A stretch of 64,000 nt of DNA from assembly GCF_019048525.1 (NCBI RefSeq), contig NZ_CP077369.1, positions 2,480,001 to 2,544,000 on the forward strand. The letters are read 5' to 3'. The DNA is from Acinetobacter lwoffii (GTDB lineage Bacteria; Pseudomonadota; Gammaproteobacteria; Pseudomonadales; Moraxellaceae). Below are positions 9,066 to 29,157 of this stretch, piece by piece (within the stretch, counting starts at the first letter, position 1; each line of letters opens with the position of its first letter). Position numbers and translations under genes: made by a program. The notes below the pieces were generated by a model that was not told the origin of the DNA, searched no databases, and saw only the letters and a program-made list of their open reading frames with translations.

Positions 9066-9075
9066 GGAAAAGCAT

Positions 9076-12526: not shown

Positions 12527-12542
12527 TGGCATCCATTTTGCT
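12527..12542 (+). promoter_or_regulatory. Sigma-54 promoter for the ABC transporter/dioxygenase operon
   Basis: TGGCATCCATTTTGCT fits TGGCACG-N4-TTGCW except at positions 6-7, with GG-N10-GC spacing. The predicted start near 12553 is about 38 bases before the permease ATG. The other 280 bases of this mtlD/permease gap are AT-rich, with no gene and no ykkC-type riboswitch that I can see. Confidence 0.68.
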
Positions 12543-12590
12543 TAGTCAGTATTACGTTTTATAAAATTTGTAATATTGAGGGGCAACACT

Positions 12591-13535
12591 ATGAGTTACG
12601 TTGCACGTGAACTCAGTCAAAGAAATAAACTACTGTTTGGCTTGGGGTCTTTTTTAATACCAATTCTAATTTGGTGTGCAGTCAGCTACTTGCCATTTAT
12701 CTGGCATCCACAAGTCCAGATTACTGATTCAGGTAGTGTTGCCTATTTACAGGTAGAGAGTCGTATTGATAAAGACCAGTTTTTTTCTGCTGCGCAGTCT
12801 GCGGTAGATCAGGGTCTTACCCCACCGCAAGGTATTCTGGTCAACCCGATTTATCTGCCTGCACCGCATGAAGTTGCGATTGCACTGATCACAGCTTTTA
12901 CCACGGAGCCGGCTCAGGCCAATGCGCCCTGGTTTCATGAAAGCCTGTGGCACAGTATCAAGCTGGTCTTTACCGCGTTCTTTATTTCTTCCTTGGTTGG
13001 TATTCCACTCGGTATTTTATGTGGGTTTTCAAATAAATTTGCCCAGCTGACCGAACCCTTTGTTGAGTTCTTCCGTTACTTGCCTGCTCCGGCCTTTGGT
13101 GCACTGGCAGTGGCAATTCTCGGAATTAATGATGCACCCAAAATTGCCATTATTGTGATAGGAACCCTGTTCCAGCAAATCCTGATCATTGCCAATACTA
13201 CTCGTCTGGTTGATCGCAGCCTGATTGAAGCCGGTTTTACTTTGGGTACAACGAAACTGAAAAGTCTGTTTCATGTGGTGATTCCAGCAGCCATGCCAGA
13301 AATTTATCGTAATCTGCGCGTACTGCTAGGTTGGGCATGGACTTATTTAATCGTAGCAGAATTGATCGGCAGTACCTCCGGGATTACCTGGTTCATTACC
13401 CAGCAAGCCCGCTATCAGAACTTCGACAATGTCTTTGCCGCGATCCTGATCATTGGGGTGATTGGTCTGCTGTGTGATGTGATTTTAATGAAACTGGGAC
13501 AACGCTTATTTAAATGGAAACCGGGAGCCAACTGA
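12591..13535 (+). CDS. ABC transporter permease, NrtB/TauC/SsuC family (putative guanidine/urea-type nitrogen importer)
   Basis: This inner-membrane permease has 314 residues. It begins with a transmembrane helix (LLFGLGSFLIPILIWCAVSY), then an extended non-membrane segment (about 45-115), then a BPD_transp_1 domain with five or six helices. The EAGFTLGTTKLKSLFHVVIPAAMP stretch is the EAA loop that docks with the ATPase. The ATG at 12591 follows GAGGGG; the TTG five codons upstream is less likely. Its stop overlaps the ATPase start by one base. Its matching binding protein is encoded in the converging unit at 16785-17807. The substrate is inferred from the surrounding guanidine carboxylase genes, not seen in the sequence. 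Confidence 0.85.
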   Translation: MSYVARELSQRNKLLFGLGSFLIPILIWCAVSYLPFIWHPQVQITDSGSVAYLQVESRIDKDQFFSAAQSAVDQGLTPPQGILVNPIYLPAPHEVAIALITAFTTEPAQANAPWFHESLWHSIKLVFTAFFISSLVGIPLGILCGFSNKFAQLTEPFVEFFRYLPAPAFGALAVAILGINDAPKIAIIVIGTLFQQILIIANTTRLVDRSLIEAGFTLGTTKLKSLFHVVIPAAMPEIYRNLRVLLGWAWTYLIVAELIGSTSGITWFITQQARYQNFDNVFAAILIIGVIGLLCDVILMKLGQRLFKWKPGAN

Positions 13536-14416
13536 TGCAAAACACTGAATTTAATACCCGCGAATACTTTGACAAGATTTATAGCCGTCCGGTGATTCTG
13601 GAAGCGAAGCAACTGACACAAAAATTCAGTCATGGCAAAACTGAACGTACGGTTTTAAATGCACTCAATTTGAAAATTCATAAGCGTGAATTTATCTGTG
13701 TGATCGGGCCTTCCGGTTGCGGCAAGTCTACGTTTAGCCGTGTAGTCGCCGGTCTGGATCCTTATAGCAGTGGTGAGATTCTGGTCGACAGCCAACCCAT
13801 CACCGGCCCTAGTCCGGAGCGTGGCATGGTGTTTCAGGGCTATACCCTGTTTCCATGGAAAACTGTTAAAGAAAATGTCATGTTTGGTCCACGTATGAAA
13901 GGTCAAAGCAGTGCAGCGGCTGAAGCCCAAGCCCGTGAATGGATCAATATTATTGGTCTGGAAAAATATGAAAACCAGTATCCGCATGAACTGTCAGGCG
14001 GGATGAAGCAGCGGGTCGCGATTGCCCGCGCATTGGTCAATGAACCGAAAATCCTGTTGATGGATGAACCTTTTGGGGCACTCGATCCGCATACACGGCA
14101 AAAAATGCAGCGTCACCTGATGGATCTTTGGCAAAACATCGATATCACCATTATTTTTGTCACCCACGATATGGATGAAGCCATTTTACTGGCCGACCGG
14201 ATTGTTGCACTGAAAGCCAATCCGGGGGAAATCAAGGAAATTATTGAAGTAGACCTCCCTCGTCCACGCCTTCCTGACGTCATGTTAACCCCGGAATTTA
14301 AACAGCTACGCCAGCATGTGAATCAGTTGGTGCATGCTGAAGAAGATGAGCTTGATCCAGCACTGGCAGAACTTCCGGTCATTCCGCGCATGACCAAGGT
14401 CAGCAGCAATAAATAA
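13535..14416 (+). CDS. ABC transporter ATPase, nitrate/sulfonate/bicarbonate family
   Basis: The 293-residue cytoplasmic ATPase has Walker A GPSGCGKSTF (about residue 60), Q-loop MVFQGYTLFPW, signature LSGGMKQR, Walker B ILLMDEPFGALD and H-loop VTHDMDEA, all intact. It energises the permease directly upstream. The ATG at 13535 uses the A of the permease TGA, with GGGAG just upstream, so a translationally coupled pair is likely. The C-terminal 60 residues beyond the core are family-typical. Substrate specificity cannot be read from an ATPase; the guess of guanidine or urea comes from the neighbouring genes. Confidence 0.88.
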   Translation: MQNTEFNTREYFDKIYSRPVILEAKQLTQKFSHGKTERTVLNALNLKIHKREFICVIGPSGCGKSTFSRVVAGLDPYSSGEILVDSQPITGPSPERGMVFQGYTLFPWKTVKENVMFGPRMKGQSSAAAEAQAREWINIIGLEKYENQYPHELSGGMKQRVAIARALVNEPKILLMDEPFGALDPHTRQKMQRHLMDLWQNIDITIIFVTHDMDEAILLADRIVALKANPGEIKEIIEVDLPRPRLPDVMLTPEFKQLRQHVNQLVHAEEDELDPALAELPVIPRMTKVSSNK

Positions 14417-14493
14417 TCTTATTCAAAATGCCTTTGGGACGACCCGAAGGTTTTAATCGCTGTGTTGGACGACCAACATTAGAGGTGATTGTC

Positions 14494-15501
14494 ATGCAAG
14501 CGCAATATGTACTCCCACTGGTTGATATTTCAAAATTGCAAAGTCCGGATTTAGCCGATCGTATTGAAGTTGCTCATGCTCTGGATCATGCCTGTAAAGA
14601 AGTCGGATTTCTTTATCTGCAAGGCGACCAGTTTAATTTTGATTACGCCAAAGCCCTGATTGAAATGGCCCAGTCCTATTTTTCTCAGGATCTGGACACC
14701 AAAATGCAGCACTATATTGGCAAATCAAAAAACCATAGTGGCTATGTGCCGATTGGCGAAGAACAGTTTGCAGGCAACAGTTATGACTTAAAAGAAGCCT
14801 ATGATGTCAATTATGACTATCAGGGACCTGAAACTGATTGTCCTTTGCTAGGCCCAACGTTATGGCCAGAAGATCCAAACTTTCAGGCAGTCGTCAGCCA
14901 GTATTATGGCCACTTGCGCGGGATCAGCCAGCAGATTTTTGCTGCCTTTGCACTGGTATTGGGCGTTCGTGAGGATTTTTTTGAAAGCAAAATTAATGAT
15001 GCACCAAGTCAGCTACGCTTGATTCATTATCCCTATAATCCGGAGGTGAAAGATGCCGAAGGTATTGGCGCACATACCGATTACGAATGCTTTACCCTGC
15101 TGTTACCAACCGCGCCTGGCTTACAGGTTTTGAATAAAGCCGGCGAATGGATCGACATTCCCCTGATCGAAAATACTCTGGTGATGAATATTGGCGACAT
15201 GATGGAAATTCTATCCAATAGTAAATATCTTGCGACCAGGCATCGGGTGAAAAAGGTCTCGGAAGAACGTTATTCATTTCCATTATTTTGTGCTTGTAAT
15301 TATGACACCGTGATCGAACCAGTCATTCAAACTGAAGATCGCAAATATTCTGCCCTGATAGGCGGAGAGCACCTGTTTAACCAGACCGCACAGACCTTTC
15401 AATATTTAAAACAGCGCGTTGCTAGCGGAGAACTGATACTTAAAAATGCTGTACCACTTTCCTCTTTTGGACTTGAGGAACAGGCGGAGACAGCATCATG
15501 A
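14494..15501 (+). CDS. 2-oxoglutarate/Fe(II)-dependent dioxygenase, isopenicillin N synthase family
   Basis: The 335-residue protein has the N-terminal DIOX_N region (about 5-130) and a 2OG-Fe(II) oxygenase domain with the facial triad: HTD in IGAHTDYECFTLL and the distal His in LATRHRVKKV, then RYSFPLF, whose Arg-x-Ser binds 2-oxoglutarate. Members of this family hydroxylate amino acids or cleave them; the ethylene-forming enzyme and plant arginine hydroxylases release guanidine. Because it lies between an importer and an SMR pump in a guanidine locus, release of guanidine from a guanidino compound is a reasonable inference, not shown here. The ATG at 14494 follows GAGGTGA. Its stop overlaps the next gene (ATGA). 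Confidence 0.8.
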   Translation: MQAQYVLPLVDISKLQSPDLADRIEVAHALDHACKEVGFLYLQGDQFNFDYAKALIEMAQSYFSQDLDTKMQHYIGKSKNHSGYVPIGEEQFAGNSYDLKEAYDVNYDYQGPETDCPLLGPTLWPEDPNFQAVVSQYYGHLRGISQQIFAAFALVLGVREDFFESKINDAPSQLRLIHYPYNPEVKDAEGIGAHTDYECFTLLLPTAPGLQVLNKAGEWIDIPLIENTLVMNIGDMMEILSNSKYLATRHRVKKVSEERYSFPLFCACNYDTVIEPVIQTEDRKYSALIGGEHLFNQTAQTFQYLKQRVASGELILKNAVPLSSFGLEEQAETAS

Positions 15502-16379
15502 ATCTGTTTGAAGTGATTAAAAGCTTAAAACCTGTAATTTCTCAGCCAGAGATTATTCCAGACTTTTTATACGGTGCTTTCCGGCGTAAAAGTATCAGTT
15601 TTTATAATGGCCTGACTGATGAAAACACCATTGTGTACTGGTTTCAGTCGCGCAGTTTTACCATTGATCTTCGTCTAAAAAGCCAGACGGGAACTGCTGT
15701 TCAGGAACGCCAAGGCTGGATTGGCAATACACTTTGGGATAGCGCCTGCCAACTCTTGTCCTGGGAAGTGAAAGACTACGCCAATTACCAGAATCATGTG
15801 CAGTGGCCGGAACCTGCTAGGTTGCATGCAATTGGCAACTGCATTCTGGAATTTTCTCCAAGCAATGTCTATGTCGAAGACTGGCGCCAGCAGGTACAAC
15901 ACGGTTTATTTTTAGGGCTGCGACTGCAATCTGCGATTGATGTTCAATCTGGTCAGACACTGGAAATGGATGGTGGTCTGATTATTTGTGCTGATCATAT
16001 TGCTTATGCCCTAACGCGTTTGCCGAAAGTGCAAAGTGCAGTAGCTCAAATGGATTTGAAAGCTGTCGATCCGACCGTGTTTGCCTTGGTGGAAAGTTTT
16101 GAGGTTTCTATCGGGACTGATGGTCAAGCTAAAACTTACAGCACCCGCAGCAGTGAGACAGGCAAAACCTTTAATCTGGAAAATTTTGAAGTTCTCAATG
16201 AAAGCAGTCTGGTTCAGCATGTAATTTTAGATGGTCGGGACATAGACCTGATATTTGAGCTGGATATGTACCAACCAGATTATGCATTTCAGTACAAAAC
16301 ACCAACGCCTACTGAAGCTGAAAGCTGGCTGAAGTTAGAACAGGATCACCTGATGCAGCATGCAGAACGGATGTTATAG
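15498..16379 (+). CDS. Uncharacterised protein of the guanidine/ABC operon
   Basis: I do not recognise this 293-residue protein. It is soluble, with no signal peptide or transmembrane segment, and looks beta-rich, with recurrent Trp/Tyr and short alternating hydrophobic strands (VYWFQSRSFTIDLRL, about residues 45-60; ILEFSPSNVYVEDW, about 115-130; LIICADHIAYALTRL, about 155-170). That pattern could suit a lipocalin-like or barrel fold, which is only an impression. It starts at ATGA inside the dioxygenase stop and is followed 8 bases later by the SMR gene, so it is co-translated with the dioxygenase and probably works with it, perhaps on the same substrate or product. Confidence 0.75.
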   Translation: MNLFEVIKSLKPVISQPEIIPDFLYGAFRRKSISFYNGLTDENTIVYWFQSRSFTIDLRLKSQTGTAVQERQGWIGNTLWDSACQLLSWEVKDYANYQNHVQWPEPARLHAIGNCILEFSPSNVYVEDWRQQVQHGLFLGLRLQSAIDVQSGQTLEMDGGLIICADHIAYALTRLPKVQSAVAQMDLKAVDPTVFALVESFEVSIGTDGQAKTYSTRSSETGKTFNLENFEVLNESSLVQHVILDGRDIDLIFELDMYQPDYAFQYKTPTPTEAESWLKLEQDHLMQHAERML

Positions 16380-16784: not shown

Positions 16785-17807
16785 TTATTGCAGCTCTTGC
16801 ACCAGAGTCGGAACAATCACACCATCCACGTTCATTTCAGTCGTATAAATGCCGTTTGCCACATTGAACTTGTTCACATGATAGCTGGAGCCATAGATCG
16901 AGTCGAAACCTTCACTTTTGGTAAAGACTTTTTTGTTTGCGGCCAGATCCAGCAAATGCGTGCCATCAATAAACTGCATGTAGGTTTTCGCATCGACACC
17001 GACACGTTTCGACATGATCTGTGCAGCATCTTCACGTGTAGCCGGGTCATTGATGTATTTGACGGTTTTATCCCAGACCTGAATCACCTTTTTCCATTGC
17101 TCTTTATTGGCTTCCAGATGGGCTGGATTAACGGTCAAGGTATCGTAGATTAATCCCGGCTTGTCTTTAGAGGTGAAAATAATCTTGGAACCGGCCACCG
17201 CGGATAAAGCCTGATTTGCCACTGGCTGCCATACCGCAATCGCATCAATATCGGGAGTGGCAAAAACCTGTGGCAATTCATTGGTCATGGTATTAACCAG
17301 TTTAACTTCATTCAGTTTAACCTTGGCATCATCCAGTGCAGTGGACAGCAATAAGTGATCGACCAGGCCTTTTTCAGTCGCAACTGTTTTACCGCGCAGA
17401 TCCTGAATCGAATTAATGCCATTCTTGGCAATAATTACGTCATTTCCAGCTGAATAATCGGTCGCCATGATCATCACGCCCTTGGTCCCGCCAGAGCCAG
17501 TGACCAGATTATCACCATTAGTGACCAGTACGGCGTCCAGCTGATTCGCTGCGAATGCAGAGAGTGAAGCAGAATAGTCAAACCATTTAAAATCGGCATT
17601 AACTCCGGCATCTTCCAGCCAGCCTTTTTCAATCGCCACCTGCCAGGCCACAAATCCGGGCCAGTCACTATAACCAATACGGATGGGCTGGGTATTCACA
17701 CTCCCTACTGCCTTGGCATTTGGCTCAGGTACTTTAGCAGTATTATCACAACCACTTAAAAGGATTGCAGACAGTACGGAAACGGACATCAGTGCTTTTT
17801 TGATCAT
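16785..17807 (-). CDS. ABC transporter substrate-binding lipoprotein (NMT1/TauA-like)
   Basis: A 340-residue periplasmic binding protein anchored as a lipoprotein: signal MIKKALMSVSVLSAILLSGC with lipobox Cys20, then an NMT1/SsuA-like fold (IRIGYSDWPGFVAWQVAIEKGW, cut here by its domain boundary, opens the first lobe). It should deliver substrate to the permease and ATPase at 12591-14416, although those are in a different, converging transcript. Start choice: the ATG overlaps the allophanate hydrolase stop (ATGA) and is preceded by GGGGAAG. Linkage to allophanate hydrolase suggests guanidine, urea or a related guanidino compound as ligand; earlier annotation of relatives as urea binding is also compatible. 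Confidence 0.85.
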   Translation of the reverse strand: MIKKALMSVSVLSAILLSGCDNTAKVPEPNAKAVGSVNTQPIRIGYSDWPGFVAWQVAIEKGWLEDAGVNADFKWFDYSASLSAFAANQLDAVLVTNGDNLVTGSGGTKGVMIMATDYSAGNDVIIAKNGINSIQDLRGKTVATEKGLVDHLLLSTALDDAKVKLNEVKLVNTMTNELPQVFATPDIDAIAVWQPVANQALSAVAGSKIIFTSKDKPGLIYDTLTVNPAHLEANKEQWKKVIQVWDKTVKYINDPATREDAAQIMSKRVGVDAKTYMQFIDGTHLLDLAANKKVFTKSEGFDSIYGSSYHVNKFNVANGIYTTEMNVDGVIVPTLVQELQ

Positions 17808-19612
17808 TTTGCGACTTCCCCTATGCATTCACATTTAAATTTGGTATTTGAAAGTTGTTTAGATTTCATAAATTCGCGCCAGCCACCGAAATGACTGATA
17901 TCTGTTGCATCTTCAAGTGCATAGCCTTCACAGATAAAGCCTTTGACCCAAGTACCACCTATCAGCTGGACATTGCCGATCCCCAAAGGTGCCGGCACTT
18001 CTGCAACAATGTCCCCGAACAGTGCACGCGGAATGTCCCAGACTTCGACTTCAATTGAACAACCTTTCGCGTTGTATTGCAGGCCAGGTTTTGGCGGTGT
18101 GGTATCTTTTAAAGCATAGAGTTTGTAATGCGAAGCAGTCCGGGTCTGTTTGATCAGGGTGCCACCACGTGTGGTCAGCTGGAAATTCAGTGGCATTCCG
18201 GTTAGATGTGCTCCGACGACAGCCAGTTTGACGCTGTGACCTGATGAGATTCCAGTTGTTTTTTCATATAGGCGTTCAGATGTGCCTAACTTTAACTGGC
18301 TCGCCTGCTGCCATTTTTGCCCGAATTTGGCCAGTGCTTCATCCATCCAGGCTGACGCAATAAAGGTCACGCCCGTTGGCAAACCATCAGCACGAATGCT
18401 ATTGGGTAGCGCCAAAGCCGCTAGATCGGCAAAATTGACAAAATTGGTATAAGCGCCCATGTGGCTGTTTTTGACCAGAGGATCCGCTTCTACATCTGCA
18501 ATGCGATAAATGGTGGGTGCAGTAGGCACCATCAAGGCATCATAATCTGCCAGTGTAGTTTGAATAACACGGCTCAGGCGGGCGCGTTCATATTCATCCT
18601 GCATGACATCGACCGCACTGAACCGGTCTGCCTGTGCAATAATCTGGCCAATGACCGGATGGGTCTGCTCGCGTTGCACCATTTTTTTCACGGCACTGGT
18701 ACGTTCAGCTACCCAAGAGCGGTTATACAAGGCCGCTGCCAGTTGTTGAAATGGAGCAAAATCAATCGGCTCAACCGTATAACCCAAGCTTTGTACACGT
18801 GCGATCGCCAGCTGGAATGCTTTTTCAGTTTCAGCATCGCCATAAAATTCCAGTGTATCCGGAATGGCAATTTTCCCTTTTGAAAATTGGCTCGGTACAT
18901 TCTGAGGATGCATTCTGGAATACTCATCGCTGGCATCATAGCCCTGCATGACTTGCGCCACCTGCCAGGCATTATCCACCGTTAATGCAAAAATCGAAAT
19001 CACATCGATGGTGCGACAAGCCGGAATCAGGCCAGTAGTCGAGAACCAGCCTTTGGTCGGTTTGAGTCCGACAATATTATTGTGCCCTGCTGGTACACGT
19101 CCTGAACCTGCAGTATCTGTACCCAGACTGAATGGCACTTGTCCATTGGCTACAGCAACACTTGAACCGGAACTTGAACCGCCACTGATGTATTCAGGAT
19201 TAAAGCTGTTCTTAACCGCACCGTATGGAGAACGCACACCGACCAGACCCGTTGCAAACTGGTCCAGATTGGTTTTACCCACGACAATCGCGCCGGCAGC
19301 TTTTAATTTGGCTACTGCTGTTGCATCGGCAGTCGCCAGATAAGCTGCTTCTTTACAAGCCGCTGTGGTATAGAACCCCGCAACATCAATATTGTCCTTG
19401 ACCGCAAATGGCACCCCATAAAGTGGCAAGCTTGCGCTATCTGCACCAGTCAATGCATCAATTTGTGCCTGTAATTGTGCTGCTGTCGCAATTGAAATCC
19501 AGGCATGATCGTCATTATTCAACCCGGCAACATACTCAATCAGGTCACTAAGCTGGATATTGTTATTCTGGTAGGCGTGTTGCCAGTCCTGTACAGTCCA
19601 TAAGTTGTGCAC
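17804..19612 (-). CDS. atzF: Allophanate hydrolase
   Basis: Hydrolyses allophanate to two ammonia and two CO2, the last step of guanidine or urea breakdown by the carboxylase route. The N-terminal amidase-signature domain (about 1-450) shows the Ser-cisSer-Lys triad: Lys in FAVKDNIDVAG and the Ser residues in SGGSSSGSSVAVANG with TDTAGSGRVPA. The C-terminal allophanate hydrolase domain (about 470-600) decarboxylates the intermediate. Its 602 residues match the stand-alone bacterial enzyme. The start is GTG, 6 bases after AAGGAGA. It lies 11 bases after the NikR-like gene and overlaps the binding-protein gene by 4 bases. The carboxylase that feeds it is 3 kb away, beyond an inserted OLD gene. 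Confidence 0.92.
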   Translation of the reverse strand: MHNLWTVQDWQHAYQNNNIQLSDLIEYVAGLNNDDHAWISIATAAQLQAQIDALTGADSASLPLYGVPFAVKDNIDVAGFYTTAACKEAAYLATADATAVAKLKAAGAIVVGKTNLDQFATGLVGVRSPYGAVKNSFNPEYISGGSSSGSSVAVANGQVPFSLGTDTAGSGRVPAGHNNIVGLKPTKGWFSTTGLIPACRTIDVISIFALTVDNAWQVAQVMQGYDASDEYSRMHPQNVPSQFSKGKIAIPDTLEFYGDAETEKAFQLAIARVQSLGYTVEPIDFAPFQQLAAALYNRSWVAERTSAVKKMVQREQTHPVIGQIIAQADRFSAVDVMQDEYERARLSRVIQTTLADYDALMVPTAPTIYRIADVEADPLVKNSHMGAYTNFVNFADLAALALPNSIRADGLPTGVTFIASAWMDEALAKFGQKWQQASQLKLGTSERLYEKTTGISSGHSVKLAVVGAHLTGMPLNFQLTTRGGTLIKQTRTASHYKLYALKDTTPPKPGLQYNAKGCSIEVEVWDIPRALFGDIVAEVPAPLGIGNVQLIGGTWVKGFICEGYALEDATDISHFGGWREFMKSKQLSNTKFKCECIGEVAK

Positions 19613-19623: not shown

Positions 19624-20067
19624 TTAAGTGTGTTCGGTATTTTGTGGAATGGGTGGCATGACGGCATCCATCAGTTCGAGATGCCCTTTAATCACGCCTT
19701 TCAGTGCAATAAATTGTTCGCTAATTTCTTTCAGATCACTGCTCGCGCCCTGCATCAGCATGACTTGCAGAATTTTTTCATCATCCAGCTGGATATGAAG
19801 CGAATTGATCACTTGTGCCAGATACTGCTGCTGCAGATCGACCAGCTGACTGCGCAGCGGTTTCAAGCTGACGTCATAGAGCAAGGTAAGCGTGCCAACC
19901 ATGACTTCATCGCGAATCACCAGATCATCAATCAGGTGACGATTAATCATATCGACAATGGCCTGCGAGCGGCTTTCATAGTGCTGCTCGACAATTTTTT
20001 GATCCATCGCATGTAGCGTTGTTTCTGGCACGGTAATACTGATCCGTGCCAATTTTTGTTTAGGCAC
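19624..20067 (-). CDS. NikR-like ribbon-helix-helix regulator lacking most nickel ligands
   Basis: The 147-residue protein has an N-terminal ribbon-helix-helix DNA-binding unit (LARISITVPETTLHAMDQ, about 6-50) and a C-terminal ACT-like domain as in NikR. Aligned by eye with E. coli NikR, only His87 (SLHIQL) is kept: the positions of His76, His89 and Cys95 are Gln, Gln and Ile. It therefore probably does not sense nickel by the known site. The start is GTG: AAGGAT stands 8 bases upstream, and the longer frame begins inside the overlapping small ORF. As the first full gene before allophanate hydrolase, it likely autoregulates this unit in response to a nitrogen metabolite (inference). Confidence 0.8.
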   Translation of the reverse strand: MPKQKLARISITVPETTLHAMDQKIVEQHYESRSQAIVDMINRHLIDDLVIRDEVMVGTLTLLYDVSLKPLRSQLVDLQQQYLAQVINSLHIQLDDEKILQVMLMQGASSDLKEISEQFIALKGVIKGHLELMDAVMPPIPQNTEHT

Positions 20068-20197: not shown

Positions 20198-20243
20198 CTC
20201 CTAGGGATATTACAAAACCAGAATTTCGTATTACTTAGGAAAA

Positions 20244-20259
20244 TGCAGAAAGCGTGCCA
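20244..20259 (-). promoter_or_regulatory. Sigma-54 promoter for the small ORF/NikR-like/allophanate hydrolase unit
   Basis: Minus-strand reading TGGCACGCTTTCTGCA matches the consensus with one deviation and correct GG-N10-GC spacing. The expected start near 20232 gives a leader of about 35 bases before the 45-codon ORF. Confidence 0.78.
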
Positions 20260-20511: not shown

Positions 20512-20804
20512 CAATATAAAAATAGAATAGATTTAAGCAGAATGCGTGGCAAATCAATTACATACATATTGAAAGCTAGAACAAGAATGATTTATTTTTT
20601 TATTATGCCTGAAAAATAGGCCATTTTGCACCATTGGGGTTCGAGTGTGCATCAAAGTGTGGCTGAGTTGTTCAGGCAACTGTATGCCTCTGCTTTCTAT
20701 ATTTGAAACTAAGATTACTAAACTTGAATCAATTACTATTTCATAACTCATTTGAAAAGTAATGAATTGCTGCTAAATTAGCTCCCATATTTGGGGGGCT
20801 TTTT
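20512..20804. other. Intergenic sequence left of the OLD gene
   Basis: About 290 AT-rich bases separate the sigma-54 site from the OLD-family gene. A 65-codon minus-strand frame (20554-20751) is present but has no recognisable domain or ribosome-binding site. No terminal inverted repeats or target duplication are visible that would mark how the OLD gene arrived. Confidence 0.5.
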
Positions 20805-22865
20805 ATGACAGAAAAATTATATTATTGGGCTGAAAATTTAGATGACTATAGCTCTGACAATGATGTTGAATATGATGAAATTATTGAGATTAAAAGACTA
20901 AATTTTTTCATTGGAAAAAATAATGCAGGGAAAAGTAGATTTTTACGTAAATTATTTCAAACAACAATGGATTTTGCAAAATTTCAAAAATATGATTTAA
21001 CAATAGAAATTAATAATCTCTGTAAATATTTAAATGCAACAAAATTTAGAAGGCCAACTCGACATGGTCAAGACAACTCATGGAGTTCTAATGGTACATC
21101 ACCTGTAAATGCCAATGAAATATTTCAAATAACCTCAGAAATTCAATTTATTAATAGCTGTAAATTCAATTTTGATTCTGTAAAAGATTTAGTTGCTCAA
21201 ACTAAATCGAAAATTTCTAATTACAAAGAAGAATCTAGTAATTCTAAAGAAAAATTAGAAGATTTATTTTCGAAAATAGATAATAAAATTGCAAGAATTG
21301 AACTACAAGAAAATTTTAAACATGGGAAATTATATATTCCTATATTGAGAGGGATGCGCCCTGTTACCAACCTTGAAAATAAACAACCTTACATTGAGCG
21401 TGCCCAAAAAGATTATTTTTCGGATACAACTCAATTTAATTCTGAAAATATTATTACAGGTGAATGTCTATACCATGAACTTAAAATCCATTTGTTAGGC
21501 GAGCCTGAACAACGAGATTTAATCAAAAGTTATGAAGAAAAACTAAGCCAATATTTTTTTGATAATGAACTTGTTTCACTCATACCTAAACACGATCAAG
21601 ATGTTGTGAATATTAAAATTGGAAAAGATAAACAATTTCCTATCTCTCAATTAGGTGACGGCCTGCAACAAGCAATTATTTTGACATATGAAGCCTACAT
21701 AAAAAGCAAAGATAACGAGGGTTACCCAGAACCGCACGCATTTTTTATAGAAGAACCTGAACTTCACATGCATGCTGGTATGGTTCGTCAATTGATGAAT
21801 TTCTACTTAAACGAAACACCTCATTATTATTTCTTTACAACGCACTCAAACCACTTACTCGATATGGCTGATGAATCTGATCAAGTCATGATTCAGAAAT
21901 TTGTAAAGCAACCCAAAGTAGATAATCCAAGTAAATTTGATTTTAAAATTCATCGTTGTGACAGAGATCGTGACTTACTTGCTTCATTAGGTGTACGTCC
22001 TTCTTCTATTTATTTGGCTAACTGTACGATTTGGGTGGAAGGCATTACAGATCGACTGTATATCACTAAATATATGCAGAAATATTTAGATGTATTAAAA
22101 CAAGAAGAAACTTTAGTGGTTGAAGGAAAACCTAATAATTTAGATTTATATAAATTTAGGTCATCAGATATTCAAAGATTAATGCCGAATTACCATTACA
22201 CATTTGTAGAATATGCTGGTAGCAACTTAACGCATTGGGATTTTAGTGACGAATTTACTGATCATTTAGATGATTGCGGTATGAACGCTCTCTTAACTTC
22301 TAGTAGTGTGTTTCTTATAGCTGATGGTGATATTAAAACTAAAAATAAAGGCATGAGAGCTACAAGTTTAGAAGAAAAACTAGGAGAAAAGTTTTTCCTT
22401 TTAGAGTGTAAAGAAACTGAAAATACCCTGCCATCAAACATTATTTATCATGCTTGCCGTATTAAATTTTTAGGCTTAAATGGTGCTTTTCAGGATGATG
22501 AGACAAAAAGAAATGCTCTTTCCAATCATCTATCCATGGATGGTATGCAAGCAGATACCAAAGAAGGTTTTGATATTGTCACTCTAATAGAAGAACATGA
22601 TTATTTTCATGCAAAAAATGGTATTGGTAAAATTCTTGATGACCAAATTAGAGTGGGTAATCCTAGAACCACTGATGACAAGCCTAAAAAATGTTTTTCT
22701 GATCAATCAGGCACTATTAAAGAAAAACTTAAATTTTGTCGCTTAGTTCTAACGGTTATGGATCATGTTGAATGGGAATTAACCGAATCTGCCAAAGAAC
22801 TATGTAAAAAAATTTTCGAACACATTATTTCTGAAAACCCTTTACCAAATAAAAAGACCGCTTAA
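20805..22865 (+). CDS. OLD-family ATP-dependent endonuclease (AAA ATPase + TOPRIM), putative phage defence
   Basis: This 686-residue protein combines an SMC-like ATPase with a TOPRIM nuclease. Walker A is FFIGKNNAGKSRF (about residue 36), with Walker B FFIEEPELHMHAGM and the following HSNHLLDMAD switch near 315-355. TOPRIM begins at IWVEGITDRLYITKY (about 407) with the later acidic motif FLIADGDIKTK. The middle of the ATPase (about 110-200) is Lys/Glu-rich. OLD nucleases, including P2 Old and GajA, act against phage; no GajB-like helicase or other partner flanks it, so it appears to be a single-gene system. It is strikingly AT-rich compared with both neighbours, lies on the opposite strand, and splits the guanidine locus, which suggests horizontal acquisition. 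GGGGGG precedes the ATG. Its stop lies inside a terminator. Confidence 0.85.
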   Translation: MTEKLYYWAENLDDYSSDNDVEYDEIIEIKRLNFFIGKNNAGKSRFLRKLFQTTMDFAKFQKYDLTIEINNLCKYLNATKFRRPTRHGQDNSWSSNGTSPVNANEIFQITSEIQFINSCKFNFDSVKDLVAQTKSKISNYKEESSNSKEKLEDLFSKIDNKIARIELQENFKHGKLYIPILRGMRPVTNLENKQPYIERAQKDYFSDTTQFNSENIITGECLYHELKIHLLGEPEQRDLIKSYEEKLSQYFFDNELVSLIPKHDQDVVNIKIGKDKQFPISQLGDGLQQAIILTYEAYIKSKDNEGYPEPHAFFIEEPELHMHAGMVRQLMNFYLNETPHYYFFTTHSNHLLDMADESDQVMIQKFVKQPKVDNPSKFDFKIHRCDRDRDLLASLGVRPSSIYLANCTIWVEGITDRLYITKYMQKYLDVLKQEETLVVEGKPNNLDLYKFRSSDIQRLMPNYHYTFVEYAGSNLTHWDFSDEFTDHLDDCGMNALLTSSSVFLIADGDIKTKNKGMRATSLEEKLGEKFFLLECKETENTLPSNIIYHACRIKFLGLNGAFQDDETKRNALSNHLSMDGMQADTKEGFDIVTLIEEHDYFHAKNGIGKILDDQIRVGNPRTTDDKPKKCFSDQSGTIKEKLKFCRLVLTVMDHVEWELTESAKELCKKIFEHIISENPLPNKKTA

Positions 22866-22888: not shown

Positions 22889-25800
22889 TCAAGCCACTGG
22901 CGCCAACGTAAACAACACCTGCCCCGTTTTTACCGTCTGCCCTTTTTCAATGGTAATTGCTTCAACCTTCATGCGTTCAGGTGCAATAATCGGAATCTCA
23001 ATCTTCATTGCTTCAATGACCGCGAGCGTTGCACCTTCTTCCACAATATCGCCCGACTGACATTCAATTTTCCAAATTGAACCCGGCATGTGCGATTCCA
23101 CTGCACAACCACCTTCAGGCACTTCAACGCCTTCACCATCATCCACCGTATCTAGGCTTTCAGAGACATATTCTGCAAGTCCTGCTTCATGCCAACGACG
23201 GCGCTCTGCATCAAAGTTAGCTTGTTGCACCGCTTTAAAGGCACAAATAGATTCTTGGTTTTCAGTTAAGAAGTCATTGTATTCTTTCAGATTCAATACA
23301 CCTTCTTCAATCCGCAGTTTTAAACGACCTGCTTTAAAGTCTTCACGCATGTGCATCAACTCGGACTCAGACACTTCATAAAACTTAATTTGGTCAAAGA
23401 AGCGCAATAACCACGGCATACCTTGTTCAAAGTCGGGGTTTTTACGGTAGCGTGACCACATTTGCGAAGTGCGACCGACAAACTGATAGCCACCCGGACC
23501 TTCCATGCCATAAACGCACATATATGCACCGCCGATACCGACAGCATTTTCAGGTGTCCACGTACGTGCAGGGTTATATTTTGTGGTGACCAAACGCTGA
23601 CGCGGATCAAGTGGCGTTGCTACAGGTGCACCCAAGTACACATCACCCAAGCCCATGACCAAATAACTGGCGTTATAGACCACATCTTTCACAGCTTGTT
23701 TGTCTTTTAAGCCATTAATACGACGGATAAATTCGATATTGTCCGGACACCACGGCGCATCAGGGCGCACGGTTTGCATATAACGTTCGGTTGCGAGTTG
23801 GGTTTGTGAATCTTCCCACGCCAATGGTAAATACACGGTACGTGATGGCACTTGCATCTCGGTCACATCAGGCAGTTGCTCTTCTGCCACTTGAAGCATA
23901 CGCAATAAATCCATCTGATCGAGTTGGGTCGAATCAAAATGAATTTGCAGTGAACGAATGCCCGGTGTCAGGTCAATAATGCCTTGAATATTTTGATCTT
24001 TCACCCATTGCATCAGCGCATGAATACGGAAACGCAGGTTTAAATCTAAAACTAACTCGCCATATTCCACCAACATATAGTTGTTACCGGCAGGACGATA
24101 CACCACATCAGGCGTGCCATTTTGACCTTTTAGGGTATCTAAAATGGCAGATTTCAGTGTGCTGATTTCAGAATAGAACGATTCATCAAAGGTGACTGCT
24201 TGTGTATCTTGAGCAGTTAATTGCGCATGATATTTTTCGTTCAGCAATTTCGCTTGATGATAGCTCACAGGCACAAATTTAACTTTATCACCGGCTTTGA
24301 GCTGACCCAATTTCCATAATTCAGAATTGATCACCACCGCAGGGCACACGAAACCACCTAGGCTTGGACCATCAGGCCCAAGAATAATTGGCATATCACC
24401 AGTGAAATCGATCGCCCCAATGGCATAGGCATTGTCATGAATATTGGATGGATGCAGACCCGCTTCGCCACCGTCCTGACGAGCCCATTCTGGTTTTGGA
24501 CCAATCAAACGAATTCCGGTACGGCTGGAGTTGAAGTGAATTTCAAACTCGTTGGCAAAGAAGGTATCAATGTCGTTTTTGGTAAAGAAATCAGGCGCAC
24601 CATGTGGACCGTACATCACCGCAATTTCCCAAGAATTGGAAAATGTTGGGATTTGATCTTCTATTAAGGCTTTCACGTCATCAGATGTAAATGCCGTGAT
24701 TGGAAGCATATCGCCAATCAGTAAATTACGCCCCGCATGACCGCCAAACTGACCCAAGGTAAAAGTCGCTTGTGAGCCTAAATATTCAGGCACATTCAGA
24801 CCACCTTTAATGCCGATATAAGTACGGCAACCTGTGGCGATCTTGCCACATTTGAGTACCTGACCTTTGCGCACATTCACAGTCTGCCACATCGGGACAG
24901 ACACACCATCCAACGTCGATGGCATATCACCACCTGCCAATACAATTTGACTATCACAATGGAATTTTAAGCTTGGGCCTTGCAAGGTACATTCGAGCCC
25001 TGCGGTATTTGGTGCATTGCCTAACAGTTGGTTCGCAACATTTAAAGACAGCGGATCAATCGCACCTGATGGCGGAACACCAACATCCCAGTAACCTAAA
25101 CGTCCTGTCACATCTTGCACGGCGGTTTGAATGCCCGCTTGTAGCACTTCAATTTTTTGAGTTTTCCACTCAAAGGTATTTAAAAAACGTGTGGTTTGCG
25201 TACCGGCTTTAAAGACATTGCAGTCGATAATGTTTTGTAGATATTCAAGGTTGGTTTCAATGCCCGCCACTTGGGTTTTAGCGAGCGTAACTGTCATGGC
25301 TTGAATTGCAGAATCACGATCATCCGCAGTCACAATAATTTTGGCAATCATCGGGTCATAGAAAGATGAGACGTTTGAACCTGTTTCTACCCAAGTTTCA
25401 TTACGCGCGTTGGCATCGAACTCAACATGCGTCAAAAGTCCTGCACTTGGTTGGAAGTTTTTGATTGGATCTTCGGCATAAAGACGCACTTGAATCGAAT
25501 GACCTTGCGACTCAAGTTTTGATGTTGGTGCAACCCAATCGCCACTGCCTAAGGTCACCATCCATTCCACAAGATCGACACCAAAGACTTGTTCAGTAAC
25601 GCCATGTTCCACTTGTAGACGGGTATTCACTTCCAAAAAGTAGAATTCTTGTGTGTCAGTATCCATCACAAATTCAACCGTACCTGCCGAGCGGTAGTTC
25701 ACCGACTGCATCAATTGAATCGCGACATTTTGGATATAAGCACGTTGTTCATCATTCAGATGTGGTGCAGGCGTTTCCTCAATCACTTTTTGGTTACGAC

Positions 25801-26509
25801 GTTGTACCGAACAATCACGCTCACCGAGTGCTAAGATTAATCCATTGCCATCACCAAAGATTTGTACTTCGATATGACGGGCATTTTGTACAAATTTCTC
25901 GAGATATAAACCTGCATCTTTAAAGTTGGCTTGCGCTAAATAAGACACGGTTGCATAAGCTTCTTTCAGCTCCTCCGCATTCCACACCAAACGCATGCCA
26001 ATACCACCACCACCTGCGGTACTTTTCAGCATCACAGGATAGCCAATACGTTCAGCTTCAAGCAGGGCTTCAGCTTCATCAGCCAATAATTGGCTACCTG
26101 GCAATAACGGTACATTGGCTTGAATCGCCAATTCACGTGCAGTGTGTTTCAGACCAAATGCTTTCATTTGCTCGGCATTTGGGCCCAAGAACACAATGCC
26201 TTGTGCTTCACAGAGATTACAGAATTCGGCATTTTCAGACAGGAATCCATAGCCCGGATGAATCGCTTGCGCACCGGTATGTTTGGCCACTTCTAAGATT
26301 TTATCGACATTCAGATAGCTTTGGCTTGCAGGTGCATCACCAATAAAGACCGCTTCATCAGCTAAAGTCACATGCAAGGAATCACGATCTGCTTCCGAAT
26401 ACACCGCAACCGATTGGATGCCTAATTTTTTAAGGGTACGGATGACACGACAAGCAATTGCACCACGGTTGGCGATGAGAACTTTATTAAACCCATATTT
26501 TAAAGTCAT
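22889..26509 (-). CDS. uca: Guanidine/urea carboxylase (biotin-dependent)
   Basis: This 1206-residue biotin enzyme carboxylates guanidine (or urea). Order: biotin carboxylase (about 1-450; IANRGAIACRVIRTLKKLG, STAGGGGIGMR ATP loop, EVNTRLQVEHGVTEQVFG), KipA-like and KipI-like carboxyltransferase halves (about 465-1050), then a biotinyl domain with the EAMKIE biotin-Lys site near the C-terminus. Annotated urea carboxylases that sit with two DUF1989 proteins and a ykkC riboswitch are now known to act on guanidine, and both occur here. The ATG at 26509 follows GCGAGG; upstream in-frame starts overlap the preceding gene. It is last of three genes in a riboswitch-controlled operon, and its product goes to the DUF1989 deiminase and then to allophanate hydrolase. 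Confidence 0.92.
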   Translation of the reverse strand: MTLKYGFNKVLIANRGAIACRVIRTLKKLGIQSVAVYSEADRDSLHVTLADEAVFIGDAPASQSYLNVDKILEVAKHTGAQAIHPGYGFLSENAEFCNLCEAQGIVFLGPNAEQMKAFGLKHTARELAIQANVPLLPGSQLLADEAEALLEAERIGYPVMLKSTAGGGGIGMRLVWNAEELKEAYATVSYLAQANFKDAGLYLEKFVQNARHIEVQIFGDGNGLILALGERDCSVQRRNQKVIEETPAPHLNDEQRAYIQNVAIQLMQSVNYRSAGTVEFVMDTDTQEFYFLEVNTRLQVEHGVTEQVFGVDLVEWMVTLGSGDWVAPTSKLESQGHSIQVRLYAEDPIKNFQPSAGLLTHVEFDANARNETWVETGSNVSSFYDPMIAKIIVTADDRDSAIQAMTVTLAKTQVAGIETNLEYLQNIIDCNVFKAGTQTTRFLNTFEWKTQKIEVLQAGIQTAVQDVTGRLGYWDVGVPPSGAIDPLSLNVANQLLGNAPNTAGLECTLQGPSLKFHCDSQIVLAGGDMPSTLDGVSVPMWQTVNVRKGQVLKCGKIATGCRTYIGIKGGLNVPEYLGSQATFTLGQFGGHAGRNLLIGDMLPITAFTSDDVKALIEDQIPTFSNSWEIAVMYGPHGAPDFFTKNDIDTFFANEFEIHFNSSRTGIRLIGPKPEWARQDGGEAGLHPSNIHDNAYAIGAIDFTGDMPIILGPDGPSLGGFVCPAVVINSELWKLGQLKAGDKVKFVPVSYHQAKLLNEKYHAQLTAQDTQAVTFDESFYSEISTLKSAILDTLKGQNGTPDVVYRPAGNNYMLVEYGELVLDLNLRFRIHALMQWVKDQNIQGIIDLTPGIRSLQIHFDSTQLDQMDLLRMLQVAEEQLPDVTEMQVPSRTVYLPLAWEDSQTQLATERYMQTVRPDAPWCPDNIEFIRRINGLKDKQAVKDVVYNASYLVMGLGDVYLGAPVATPLDPRQRLVTTKYNPARTWTPENAVGIGGAYMCVYGMEGPGGYQFVGRTSQMWSRYRKNPDFEQGMPWLLRFFDQIKFYEVSESELMHMREDFKAGRLKLRIEEGVLNLKEYNDFLTENQESICAFKAVQQANFDAERRRWHEAGLAEYVSESLDTVDDGEGVEVPEGGCAVESHMPGSIWKIECQSGDIVEEGATLAVIEAMKIEIPIIAPERMKVEAITIEKGQTVKTGQVLFTLAPVA

Positions 26510-26513
26510 AGTC

Positions 26514-27164
26514 TTATACCTCGCCTTCACGGACAATCAGTTGAATTTTTGTTGGGTTATAGGCATTACATGGGTTATTCAGTTGTGGGCAGTTTGAGAT
26601 CAACACAATCAAATCCATCTCAGCTTTAATTTCCACATATTTGCCCGGTGCAGAAATCCCATCATCAAATTTCAGGTGACCATCTGAAGTTACAGGTACA
26701 TTCATAAAAAAATTAATATTTGGACCGATATGGCGCACATTCAGACCATGCTTTTTCGCAATCGGATGTTGTGACAATGCAATCATGAAATTGTTACGGC
26801 AACTGTGCATTGGATATTTATCATGCGCATAACGGACTGTGTTACTTTCACATGAACATGCACCGCCTAAAGTATCGTGGCGACCGCAGTTGTCATCATG
26901 AATACTCACAATTTTATTGCCAAAGTTGGTATATAAAGTCGTACCTTTTTCTAGATAAATTTGACGGTTCATCGCCAAAGTATCGGTTGCGCTATAACGC
27001 TCTTCAGGGTTATGTGCGGAAATAAACAAAGTATCCACCGCTTGATTACCTTCAAGATCAACAATACGGAAATACTGGCCTTTTTTGACTTCACACATCC
27101 ATGCTTCACCGGCAGGACAAACTTCGCTAAGTACTGATTTTTCTAGATTTACGAGTGCAGTCAT
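26514..27164 (-). CDS. DUF1989 protein, carboxyguanidine deiminase subunit (urea carboxylase-associated)
   Basis: This is one of two DUF1989 paralogues beside the carboxylase (216 residues from the chosen start). The paired proteins are known to form carboxyguanidine deiminase, converting carboxyguanidine to allophanate plus ammonia. Residues around GRHDTLGGACSCESN (about 95-109) supply His and Cys that probably bind the metal of this fold; MHSCRNNFMIAL follows. The second ATG (MTALVNLEK) is preferred because GGGGA lies 6 bases before it, against one base for the first. It ends 4 bases before the carboxylase ATG and begins 11 bases after its partner. Which of the two subunits is CgdA and which CgdB is not settled from sequence alone. 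Confidence 0.85.
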   Translation of the reverse strand: MTALVNLEKSVLSEVCPAGEAWMCEVKKGQYFRIVDLEGNQAVDTLFISAHNPEERYSATDTLAMNRQIYLEKGTTLYTNFGNKIVSIHDDNCGRHDTLGGACSCESNTVRYAHDKYPMHSCRNNFMIALSQHPIAKKHGLNVRHIGPNINFFMNVPVTSDGHLKFDDGISAPGKYVEIKAEMDLIVLISNCPQLNNPCNAYNPTKIQLIVREGEV

Positions 27165-27175
27165 GATCATTCCCC

Positions 27176-27913
27176 TTAAGCAGTTAAAGCGTAGTAGCGG
27201 TTATTATTTTGAAACGCACGCTGATTTTGCGGGCATGAGTCACGGCAGACATCGGTGTCGCCTAAAGGCAGTGCTTTAAAGAGTGAGAGCTGAATATCGG
27301 CTGGTGCATATTCATTAGAATTGTCGAGTGCATGTGGTGCGCTGGATAAAAACACCAAACAATCCATTTCAAAGCGTAGTTCAATCACTTGATCGGTATT
27401 ATCAGATACGACATAAGACAAGTTGCCGTTGTCATCCGGTGCAACTTTTGAAAATAGGTTTAAGGTATTACTCAGATCCGTCGCAGATAAACCAAATTTG
27501 GTCATCTCTAAAAGTAGGCTGTCTTTAGCATTGCGGTACATGTCGTTGCGGGCATCCTGGAAGGTCTTCGTACCAAACTGTGCTCCAATTTGCGGTGCGG
27601 TACTTGGCGCACAAAAGGCATCATTCCAACCGTGGTCATCTTTGACAATCGAGATCATCGCACGTCCTAAATCAGACGCTAAAATATGCCCTGTACTTAA
27701 AAATGCCGTGTGTTGTGCTTTTAAGCTGTCTGGCATGTTATAGGCTTCAAGCTTGTCTTCGCTATTTACACAAAACAGTGAAACATTGGCATTCGCGCCT
27801 AAAGATTTGAGTTGTAAAACTGCGCCACGCTGAATGCGTGCTGACCAGTGGTGTCCACCCGGTAAACGTTCAGTCCAGAGGACTTGATCTTCGTGATAAG
27901 TTATTGTGCTCAT
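27176..27913 (-). CDS. DUF1989 protein, carboxyguanidine deiminase second subunit
   Basis: The 245-residue first gene of the operon and paralogue of the next one. Landmarks are TERLPGGHHWSARIQRG (about 11-27), GRAMISIVKDDHGWNDAFCAP (metal-site equivalent, here with His and a single Cys), and DCLVFLSSAPHALDN near the end. The Cys pair of its partner is not kept, which suggests one catalytic and one supporting subunit. The ATG at 27913 is set by GGGATGGATG just upstream; this site lies about 30 bases beyond the riboswitch, so the switch can act on its access. Together with the partner it turns carboxyguanidine into allophanate (established for the family). Confidence 0.85.
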   Translation of the reverse strand: MSTITYHEDQVLWTERLPGGHHWSARIQRGAVLQLKSLGANANVSLFCVNSEDKLEAYNMPDSLKAQHTAFLSTGHILASDLGRAMISIVKDDHGWNDAFCAPSTAPQIGAQFGTKTFQDARNDMYRNAKDSLLLEMTKFGLSATDLSNTLNLFSKVAPDDNGNLSYVVSDNTDQVIELRFEMDCLVFLSSAPHALDNSNEYAPADIQLSLFKALPLGDTDVCRDSCPQNQRAFQNNNRYYALTA

Positions 27914-27941
27914 TTGCATCCATCCCAATCTTTTTACGGTT

Positions 27942-28047
27942 TACCTCCCGGGCTTTTATCCCTCCGTGTAGCTTGGGTTTGAACAAACCTAGCCGTGAAC
28001 TCTCGGTCGCAGACCTACATGAATGTTCATGTATCGGAACCCTAGAT
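27942..28047 (-). promoter_or_regulatory. Guanidine-I (ykkC) riboswitch
   Basis: Read on the minus strand, the conserved blocks occur in order: CTAGGGTTCCG, GGTCTGCGACCGAGAG, the CTACACGGAGGGATAAAAG segment and GCCCGGGAGG. Between them two variable helices are intact as inverted repeats: ACATGAA/TTCATGT (28017-28032) and GGTTTG/CAAACC (27976-27989). This is the ykkC class that binds free guanidinium. No T run follows, and the ribosome-binding site of the first DUF1989 gene lies about 25 bases downstream, so control of translation seems more likely than termination. It controls the DUF1989/DUF1989/carboxylase operon. Confidence 0.92.
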
Positions 28048-28070
28048 CACTTTATGATGATGTAGATAGA

Positions 28071-28086
28071 TGCAAAGGACGTGCCA
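28071..28086 (-). promoter_or_regulatory. Sigma-54 promoter for the guanidine carboxylase operon
   Basis: Minus-strand reading TGGCACGTCCTTTGCA matches TGGCACG-N4-TTGCW at every defined position, the best of the six in this window. The predicted start near 28061 lies about 14 bases before the riboswitch, so the whole aptamer is in the transcript. Confidence 0.85.
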
Positions 28087-28190
28087 AACTGGTAATACTA
28101 TTTTTTATATTCGTAATACTTTTTTTTGAGATGGAACTGATTACTTCAGGTGCAAGGCTCTGAAAAAGGCATCAAGATGTACCAAAATAA

Positions 28191-28263: not shown

Positions 28264-29157
28264 TTATTTACTTAAAATCTCATGCAGCATATTACGTAAC
28301 CATTGATGACTGGTTTTATGATGACAAGACATATGCCAATACTGCTTTACGGAATAGGTCGGGAAAGCAATCGGTGCCTCAAAAATCTTGAGATTGCCAC
28401 GTGATAACAGGACTTCACTCAAATAATAAGGCACGGTCGCAATCGCATCGGTTTCCTGTACCACCAGTCCTACCCCGAGATAACTTGGCAGACGCATTAG
28501 AATGTCACGCTTGAGTTCCAGATTCAGCAATTCATTTTCAATATGGTAATGCCCCATCCCGGCATCAATATCAATATGGGTTTCACGTAAATACTCTTCT
28601 GTCGTGATGCTGTCACCGGTCAGGCGCGGATGGTCTTTCGCCGCGATCACCACATAATATTGCTCAAACAGTTTCTGCTGATAAAAGCCATTCTCCAGAT
28701 TTGGCAAGAAGCCCAAAGCCAGATCAATCTCACCATTGGCCATTTGATAACTGGTTTCCGAGGTAATCGGACGCACATTCAGACGGATATGGGATGCATG
28801 CTGTTTCAAATACTGGGAAATTTTCGGCAATAACACCAGATGCGATACATCGGTCATCGCCAATGTAAAGCGCTGCTGTGAAGTGACCTGATCAAAATTG
28901 ATCGTAAAATTATTGATTGCTTCAACTTTGCTCAGTGCTTCGCTGACCAAGGGAAAGAGCTGTTTGGACAGGTCTGTCGGCAGCATTTCATTGCCAATAC
29001 GTAAAAATAAAGGATCACCATAATGCTGGCGAATTTTATTCAGCAGATTGCTCACCGCAGGCTGGCTCATATCTAAATGATCGGCTGCCTGGGATACGTT
29101 TTTAAATTTATAGACATAATAAAAAATACTGAGCAATTTACAGTCAAGTTCAAACAC
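28264..29157 (-). CDS. LysR-family transcriptional regulator
   Basis: The 297-residue product has the LysR helix-turn-helix at the N-terminus (VYKFKNVSQAADHLDMSQ, then PAVSNLLNKIRQHYGDPLF) and a substrate-binding domain from about residue 90 (RFTLAMTDVSHLVLL). The PAVSNLLNKIR style is that of NodD/LeuO-like members. The start is GTG, about 10 bases after AAGGA; no in-frame ATG fits as well. It is upstream of the guanidine carboxylase operon on the same strand but separated by a terminator, so it may regulate that operon or something unrelated; nothing in the sequence decides this. Confidence 0.85.
   Translation of the reverse strand: MFELDCKLLSIFYYVYKFKNVSQAADHLDMSQPAVSNLLNKIRQHYGDPLFLRIGNEMLPTDLSKQLFPLVSEALSKVEAINNFTINFDQVTSQQRFTLAMTDVSHLVLLPKISQYLKQHASHIRLNVRPITSETSYQMANGEIDLALGFLPNLENGFYQQKLFEQYYVVIAAKDHPRLTGDSITTEEYLRETHIDIDAGMGHYHIENELLNLELKRDILMRLPSYLGVGLVVQETDAIATVPYYLSEVLLSRGNLKIFEAPIAFPTYSVKQYWHMSCHHKTSHQWLRNMLHEILSK

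Follow-up and report, generated by a model that had tools for sequence, protein, structure and literature searches.

Guanidine carboxylase operons have been described in Raoultella, Klebsiella and Erwinia, where a Guanidine-I riboswitch precedes the importer and carboxyguanidine deiminase genes and the pathway joins the carboxylase to an allophanate hydrolase (PMC12186494, accessible part). The gca-mgd operon of Vreelandella boliviensis brings together gca, cgdA/B, atzF and genes for an ABC importer, a dioxygenase and a lyase, again with guanidine riboswitches (PMC12508155, accessible part). Here we describe a locus of Acinetobacter lwoffii that is like both in these respects. It lies in a stretch of 64,000 nucleotides (contig NZ_CP077369.1, positions 2,480,001 to 2,544,000; hereafter the window), and we focus on the minus-strand control region ahead of its UAAP1, UAAP2 and carboxylase genes. 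While V. boliviensis has one operon with a Guanidine-I and an internal Guanidine-II riboswitch, the window has three operons, one riboswitch and three putative NikR-type operators (PMC12508155, same part). Compared with the Raoultella, Klebsiella and Erwinia operons, the window aptamer begins about 5 nt past a predicted sigma-54 start and a NikR-type operator sits beside the promoter; neither feature is mentioned in the accessible part of the review (PMC12186494).

The locus also resembles the NtrC/sigma-54 nitrogen regulon, with -24/-12 promoters, an NtrC gene, and nitrate and nitrite genes in the window, to which it adds a riboswitch at the start point and a NikR-like site. The NikR-like protein family that we connect with this site differs from NikR, the nickel-responsive repressor, in lacking the His3Cys site, in its half-site (GTAWTAC), in its linkage to guanidine genes and in forming a separate branch. 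In the open-access literature, we found no link between NikR, NtrC or RpoN and guanidine operons, and guanidine is not named in the accessible part of a survey of NikR (PMC2667541). According to a 2025 review, riboswitches, transporters and enzymes are the sole known guanidine receptors, and guanidine-binding transcription factors may yet turn up (PMC12186494, accessible part). The NikR-like family is a concrete candidate for such a factor, with a defined operator and defined targets, and the control region described here quite probably serves a guanidine-assimilation operon with three inputs.

A putative operator and its likely NikR-like regulator

We compared the regions around the aptamer across the genus (84 fetched loci plus the window, 85 in total). 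Upstream, this revealed a second conserved block, in which two GTAWTAC half-sites are separated by 14 bp and which stops a few bases short of the -24 box. In the window, it reads GTATTAC-N14-GTATTAC on the minus strand (28092..28119) and lies 5 bp 5′ of the -24 box of the riboswitch promoter. This putative 28-bp operator, GTAWTAC-N14-GTAWTAC, is an element that the first-pass annotation of the region overlooked. At the riboswitch promoter, the operator is exact in 61/85 loci and within one mismatch in 74/85, and wherever it scores at least 12 of 14 (78/85 loci), it ends 2 to 5 bp 5′ of the -24 box. The operator of NikR is GTATGA-N16-TCATAC, two half-sites in a 28-bp layout; the half-site pattern of the window operator has the same 6-16-6 layout, with different half-sites.

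Two further copies, each with one mismatch, occur in the window directly 3′ of the -12 box of a sigma-54 element. One (12549..12576) follows TGGCATCCATTTTGCT (12527..12542, plus strand) before the ABC and dioxygenase genes, and the other (20207..20234) follows TGGCACGCTTTCTGCA (20244..20259, minus strand) before the genes for the NikR-like protein, allophanate hydrolase and substrate-binding protein. The whole genome holds one exact match (28092-28119) and five with one mismatch; three of these six are at the guanidine promoters of the window and three are inside reading frames. At two mismatches, matches are background (74 in the genome versus 102 for the reversed pattern). The nikR-like promoter carries the operator within one mismatch, 4 to 12 bp behind the -24/-12 element, in 30/30 genus loci (L085-L114).

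The likely owner of this operator is a NikR-like ribbon-helix-helix regulator without a nickel site, encoded at 19624..20067 on the minus strand (GTG start at 20067 assumed; upstream, in 20067-20191, the ATG at 20191 follows a GGAG resembling a ribosome site but is not in the frame of the gene). The nearest named proteins of this kind come from Acinetobacter. Its product combines a ribbon-helix-helix with a NikR_C domain (66.3 bits), the domain pair of NikR, and scores 92.8 against the NCBIfam NikR equivalog, below the cut-off of 105; three of three tested relatives pass that cut-off. NikR binds Ni(II) through three His and one Cys. All four of these ligands are kept in 7/7 canonical NikR proteins versus 0/119 aligned rows of the NikR-like family. 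The Cys is lost in 119/119 rows, the second His is Gln in 30/30 genus proteins, and the window protein has Q, H, Q and I at the four positions. Some genes passing database nickel-regulator models may be unrelated to nickel.

Within the genus, gene, aptamer and operator go together. NikR_C exceeds the cut-off in 81/149 genomes, all of them among the 85 with an aptamer (Fisher p 8e-38), and an exact operator occurs anywhere in the genome in 76/81 genomes with NikR_C versus 11/68 without. These loci are related, and their counts are not independent events; independent support comes from outside families. Four aptamer genomes (G063, G121, G052 and G080) have no NikR_C above the cut-off. In G063, the nikR-like gene is broken in pieces (L199, 5975-6403) and the operator of the riboswitch promoter has decayed, and in G121, which has no nikR-like gene, one operator half-site is lost.

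Across the order, NikR_C was found in 17/244 genomes, including that of the window. In four genomes of another family (g79), some 6 kb separate the nikR-like gene from the aptamer, which leads UAAP1-UAAP2-carboxylase, and a divergent transporter operon has nikR-like further along the same strand. This transporter operon has a -24/-12 element, then the operator after 7 bp, and no riboswitch by regular expression; all four nickel ligands are changed in the four g79 proteins. A further genome of another family (G177) has the same operator arrangement at its transporter operon, on a contig different from that of nikR-like. G177 (L200/L202) is possibly a mixed assembly, as its nikR-like contig is assigned to Verrucomicrobiaceae in one collection and to the window's order in another. 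In G302, from the window's own family, the genes stand in one row behind one aptamer, with neither a NikR_C match nor an operator.

To look further afield, we kept 80 of 197 relatives from named genomes, mostly beta- and gammaproteobacteria (1.39 Mb). Genes were assigned by tblastn with the window proteins, and Guanidine-I was called by regular expression except in 21 loci scanned with Rfam. The operator occurs within one mismatch 71 times in 67/80 loci, versus no matches for the reversed pattern and 0 and 0 in two dinucleotide shuffles; altered spacers of 8 to 13 and 15 to 21 bp gave 0 to 2 matches each. Nearly all of these operators (69/71) lie 2 to 19 bp behind a -24/-12 element scoring at least 12. 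Of the remaining two, one lies behind a -24/-12 element on the other strand and one behind an element with a score of 11.75. In L209 (7836-9983), genes of the creatininase and glutamine-synthetase families lie between the ABC genes and nikR-like.

The outside loci suggest that operator and riboswitch stand in for each other. In 52/80 loci, nikR-like is followed directly by UAAP; Guanidine-I precedes UAAP in 0/52 by regular expression (in L216 and L252, it lies elsewhere on the locus), and Rfam found it in 0/14 of the co-operonic loci tested. The operator is present in 43/52. Of the nine others, six are cut off upstream and three have a weaker copy, scoring 10 to 12 of 14, at a distance of 13 bp from the -12 box on its 3′ side. 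Rfam placed Guanidine-II just 5′ of the carboxylase in 8/14 tested co-operonic loci. Where the UAAP operon is separate (11/80 loci), Guanidine-I heads it in 10/11, and all 10 of these loci have the operator at the transporter-nikR-like operon; Rfam confirmed Guanidine-I in 7/7 tested loci of this group. The 17/80 loci without a UAAP gene have the operator in 14 cases. In L255 (Gallionellales), the eleventh of the loci with a separate UAAP operon, Guanidine-I (4717-4823) leads the transporter-nikR-like operon, in the place that the operator takes in other loci; no operator was found there at up to one mismatch, and the UAAP operon extends past the end of the locus. Whole guanidine operons of other proteobacteria seem to be controlled by this protein family and its operator instead of Guanidine-I. 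This exchange makes guanidine or a close metabolite the best-fitting ligand, and the NikR-like protein may sense one of these.

Sigma-54 promoter, riboswitch and carboxylase

In the -24/-12 element that sigma-54 recognizes, GG and GC are conserved at a set distance from each other. The element TGGCACGTCCTTTGCA (28071..28086, minus strand) has both dinucleotides at that spacing and is the sole match to TGGCACGNNNNTTGCW without mismatch in the window. At up to two mismatches, there are 28 matches where 13.0 are expected, so little weight attaches to looser matches. A stronger test is conservation: all 85 genus aptamer loci have a sigma-54 element 5′ of the aptamer, and in 84/84 fetched loci the 110 nt 5′ of the aptamer core hold a site that scores 13.75 or more out of 14.5, versus 2/3360 dinucleotide shuffles. 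Placing +1 12 nt past the C of the -12 box (28072) gives a predicted start at 28060. The first-pass annotation had called the same perfect element, which the exact match and the genus conservation bear out, and its start at 28061 is one base from our prediction. The predicted start lies 15 nt 5′ of the CTAGGG aptamer core, a distance of 12 to 17 nt in 84/85 genus loci and 31 nt in the remaining one.

Order-wide, RF00442 was found in 70/244 genomes, 30 of which were obtained as loci. A -24/-12 element scoring at least 12 lies within 160 nt in 28/30 (versus 52/1200 shuffles) and one scoring at least 13 in 24/30 (versus 6/1200); L155 and L161 have none scoring at least 12 within this distance. 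The pairing of aptamer and sigma-54 promoter is therefore common in the order and not peculiar to the window. These 30 aptamers lead genes for a substrate-binding protein (27), an ABC permease (2) or a UAAP (1), and most of the binding proteins are just 24 to 29% identical to that of the window.

Two genes in the genome clearly encode sigma-54 activators; one is NtrC by the NCBIfam cut-off, and the other falls below it. A possible but weak NtrC site, TGCACCTGAAGTAATCA, matches 8 of 12 positions at 28138..28154 (minus strand). Sites matching at least 9 of 12 occur in 37/85 genus loci, which are not independent, versus 13/425 mononucleotide shuffles. Sigma-54-like sites also occur at 20496-20511 and 20536-20551 (minus strand), 5′ of the nikR-like promoter and without an operator. 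Two more, with one mismatch each, at 8274-8289 (minus) and 8426-8441 (plus), precede the nirB/nirD/nitrate reductase genes (219-7983) and the genes for an ANTAR regulator and an NMT1-type binding protein (8487-10080); no NikR-type operator was found at either.

The RF00442 covariance model of the Guanidine-I (ykkC) aptamer matches 27943..28056 on the minus strand with 74.2 bits (gathering score, 63; E, 2.4e-11; full model, 1-107), which upholds an earlier call at 27942-28047. The genes 3′ of it are UAAP1, UAAP2 and the carboxylase, in keeping with the location of Guanidine-I at genes for guanidine transport or breakdown. The family is present in 85/149 Acinetobacter genomes, with one copy per genome. 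Between the aptamer and the ATG at 27913, 29 nt after it, lies a short expression platform without a T run (27914..27942, minus strand). Within 90 nt 3′ of the aptamer's ACACGGAGGG, TTTTT is found in 0/85 genus leaders and TTTT in 8/85. The absence of a five-T run favors translational control. In a leader fold, the free leader has its ATG paired; imposing the aptamer opens the ATG and leaves the ribosome site closed, which lends weak support to the same mode. The first-pass annotation had proposed an AND gate, with transcription set by nitrogen hunger and translation by substrate. Its two inputs appear real and are conserved together, an NtrC gene is present, and the leaders agree with the translational part, which the fold backs only weakly. 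The gate is incomplete, however, as it left out the NikR-type operator. Since the window has this operator at three of its sigma-54 promoters, all of them serving guanidine genes, transcription probably has inputs besides nitrogen hunger.

The operon encodes two DUF1989 proteins that are carboxyguanidine deiminase subunits by homology, UAAP1 (27176..27928, start probably at the ATG at 27913) and UAAP2 (26514..27170), and a carboxylase (22889..26536), all on the minus strand. The carboxylase bears the NCBIfam name urea carboxylase (TIGR02712). Its Asp710 aligns with the Asn in AINFTGD of the yeast (K. lactis) urea carboxylase 3va7, which we take to be residue 1330, in agreement with the chain offset in the alignment. 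One active-site position is Asp in guanidine carboxylases and Asn in urea carboxylases (PMC12186494, accessible part). The column of D710 is Asp in 117/117 sequences (51/51 genus loci, 8/8 other mapped loci and 58/58 outside loci reaching the column; one of the 58 also yields Tyr, from a second piece). Asp710, the Guanidine-I aptamer and the two DUF1989 genes together make guanidine the likely substrate, as the earlier annotation had supposed in preferring guanidine to urea.

Proposed control and its alternatives

From the elements, their conservation, their linkage and the loss of the nickel ligands, which the sequence itself establishes, we infer the following scheme. When nitrogen is short, sigma-54 polymerase, most likely driven by NtrC, would start at about 28060. 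The transcript would open with the Guanidine-I aptamer, and binding of guanidine would allow translation of the UAAP1-UAAP2-carboxylase message. The NikR-derived ribbon-helix-helix protein, whose gene lies 8 kb away, would bind GTAWTAC-N14-GTAWTAC and repress the sigma-54 promoters of the guanidine genes, occluding their start points when guanidine is absent. Having no nickel site, it would most likely leave the DNA on guanidine or a near pathway metabolite. At the two riboswitch-free promoters of the window, the operator would cover the start region just past the -12 box. The riboswitch promoter would have the aptamer in that place, about 5 nt past the start, and its operator lies just before the -24 box. 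A broader proposal sees in the NikR-like proteins a family of transcription factors that respond to guanidine, arose from a nickel sensor when the metal site was lost, do the job of Guanidine-I at sigma-54 promoters and replace the riboswitch operon by operon, the Acinetobacter locus having both. We regard this as evenly poised between right and wrong. The family offers a natural contrast, since one pathway is controlled by an RNA sensor in some operons and seemingly by a protein in others.

Several observations weigh against the three-input scheme. Eleven of the 85 genus riboswitch promoters have an operator weaker than one mismatch, scoring 11 or 12 of 14, and the 11/68 genomes with an exact operator but no NikR_C are close to the rate for the reversed pattern (29/149). 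G052 and G080 have an aptamer and an intact exact operator with no convincing NikR-like match; there, the operator may have outlived the gene or may have another user. The equivalents of H87 and H89 are kept in 79/80 and 77/80 outside loci, where a changed metal site is possible. The operator of the riboswitch promoter lies 5′ of the -24 box, a position also suited to activation. The window's NtrC candidate is at chance level, its score of 8 being reached by 103/425 shuffles, and the leader fold is a crude model.

That last position of the operator opens another reading, in which the NikR-like protein is a repressor at the other two promoters but serves the riboswitch promoter by activating it or by bending DNA for an NtrC loop. 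The operator does end 2 to 5 bp 5′ of the -24 box (78/85), between this box and possible NtrC sites upstream; yet the 71 sites outside the genus lie 3′ of the -12 box, the place of a repressor, as does the operator at the promoter of nikR-like itself in 30/30 genus loci. We consider this reading unlikely, though the most credible of the alternatives. It is less probable that the protein still senses nickel or another metal and, when that metal abounds, switches off the carboxylase route, which uses no nickel. Its fold is that of NikR, most outside relatives have His at two or three of the four ligand positions, the three relatives tested exceed the NCBIfam NikR cut-off, and a nickel-dependent guanidinase is known elsewhere (PMC12186494, accessible part). 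Against this stand the universal loss of the Cys ligand (119/119), the change of the second His to Gln in all 30 genus proteins, the four g79 proteins with all four ligands changed, and the position of the gene among guanidine genes in the mapped loci, in which nickel genes were not searched for.

A simpler account keeps the plain two-input AND gate of NtrC/sigma-54 and Guanidine-I, with the repeat belonging to another protein and the NikR-like protein doing another job. Such a gate does appear to exist elsewhere: the sigma-54 promoter accompanies Guanidine-I without NikR-like in the order-level loci (28/30), and among those 30 genomes, G242 alone has a NikR_C match, a canonical one. At the present locus, we judge it very improbable. 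The operator marks the promoter of nikR-like itself throughout the 30 genus loci, tracks the gene across the genus, recurs with it in other families, and is laid out like NikR operators, with two half-sites over 28 bp, whereas among 31 Guanidine-I loci of genomes that lack NikR-like, just one has the pattern, some 1 kb away from the aptamer. As for the riboswitch, Guanidine-I is reported to stimulate the transcription of the genes under it (PMC12186494, accessible part), which would fit control by termination. With no TTTTT in any of the 85 leaders within 90 nt past ACACGGAGGG, TTTT in eight of them and the window ATG only 29 nt past the aptamer, this seems about as doubtful as metal sensing, or slightly more so. 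Least credible of all, to the point of near dismissal, is that the enzyme is a urea carboxylase: its NCBIfam name says so, but it has Asp where the yeast urea carboxylase has Asn, and both UAAP genes and the guanidine aptamer adjoin it. We thus retain the three-input scheme, with the NikR-like protein as a guanidine-responsive repressor, as the preferred reading.

Other genes of the window

An allophanate hydrolase (AtzF; TIGR02713, 771 bits) is encoded at 17804..19612 and an ABC substrate-binding protein of the NMT1/SsuA type at 16785..17828, both on the minus strand. On the plus strand, ABC permease and ATPase genes (12576..14416) are followed by a 2-oxoglutarate/Fe(II) dioxygenase gene and a gene without a Pfam family (14428..16379). 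By gene content alone, this last pair resembles mgdH/mgdL of the methylguanidine pathway (PMC12508155, accessible part), and it sits behind a NikR-type operator. The carboxylase and nikR-like are separated by a gene for a 686-amino-acid ATPase (AAA_15/AAA_21) on the opposite strand (20805-22865, plus); in G006 (L195), the two are adjacent, without the intervening ATPase gene.

A LysR gene at 28264-29157 was considered as the operon regulator and rejected, since a LysR with more than 50% identity lies within 2 kb 5′ of the aptamer in just 14/54 genus loci. Elsewhere in the window, at 52926-53870 (plus strand), an ALIL pseudoknot overlaps the 5′ end of a gene for an IS3-type transposase, which has integrase core domains.
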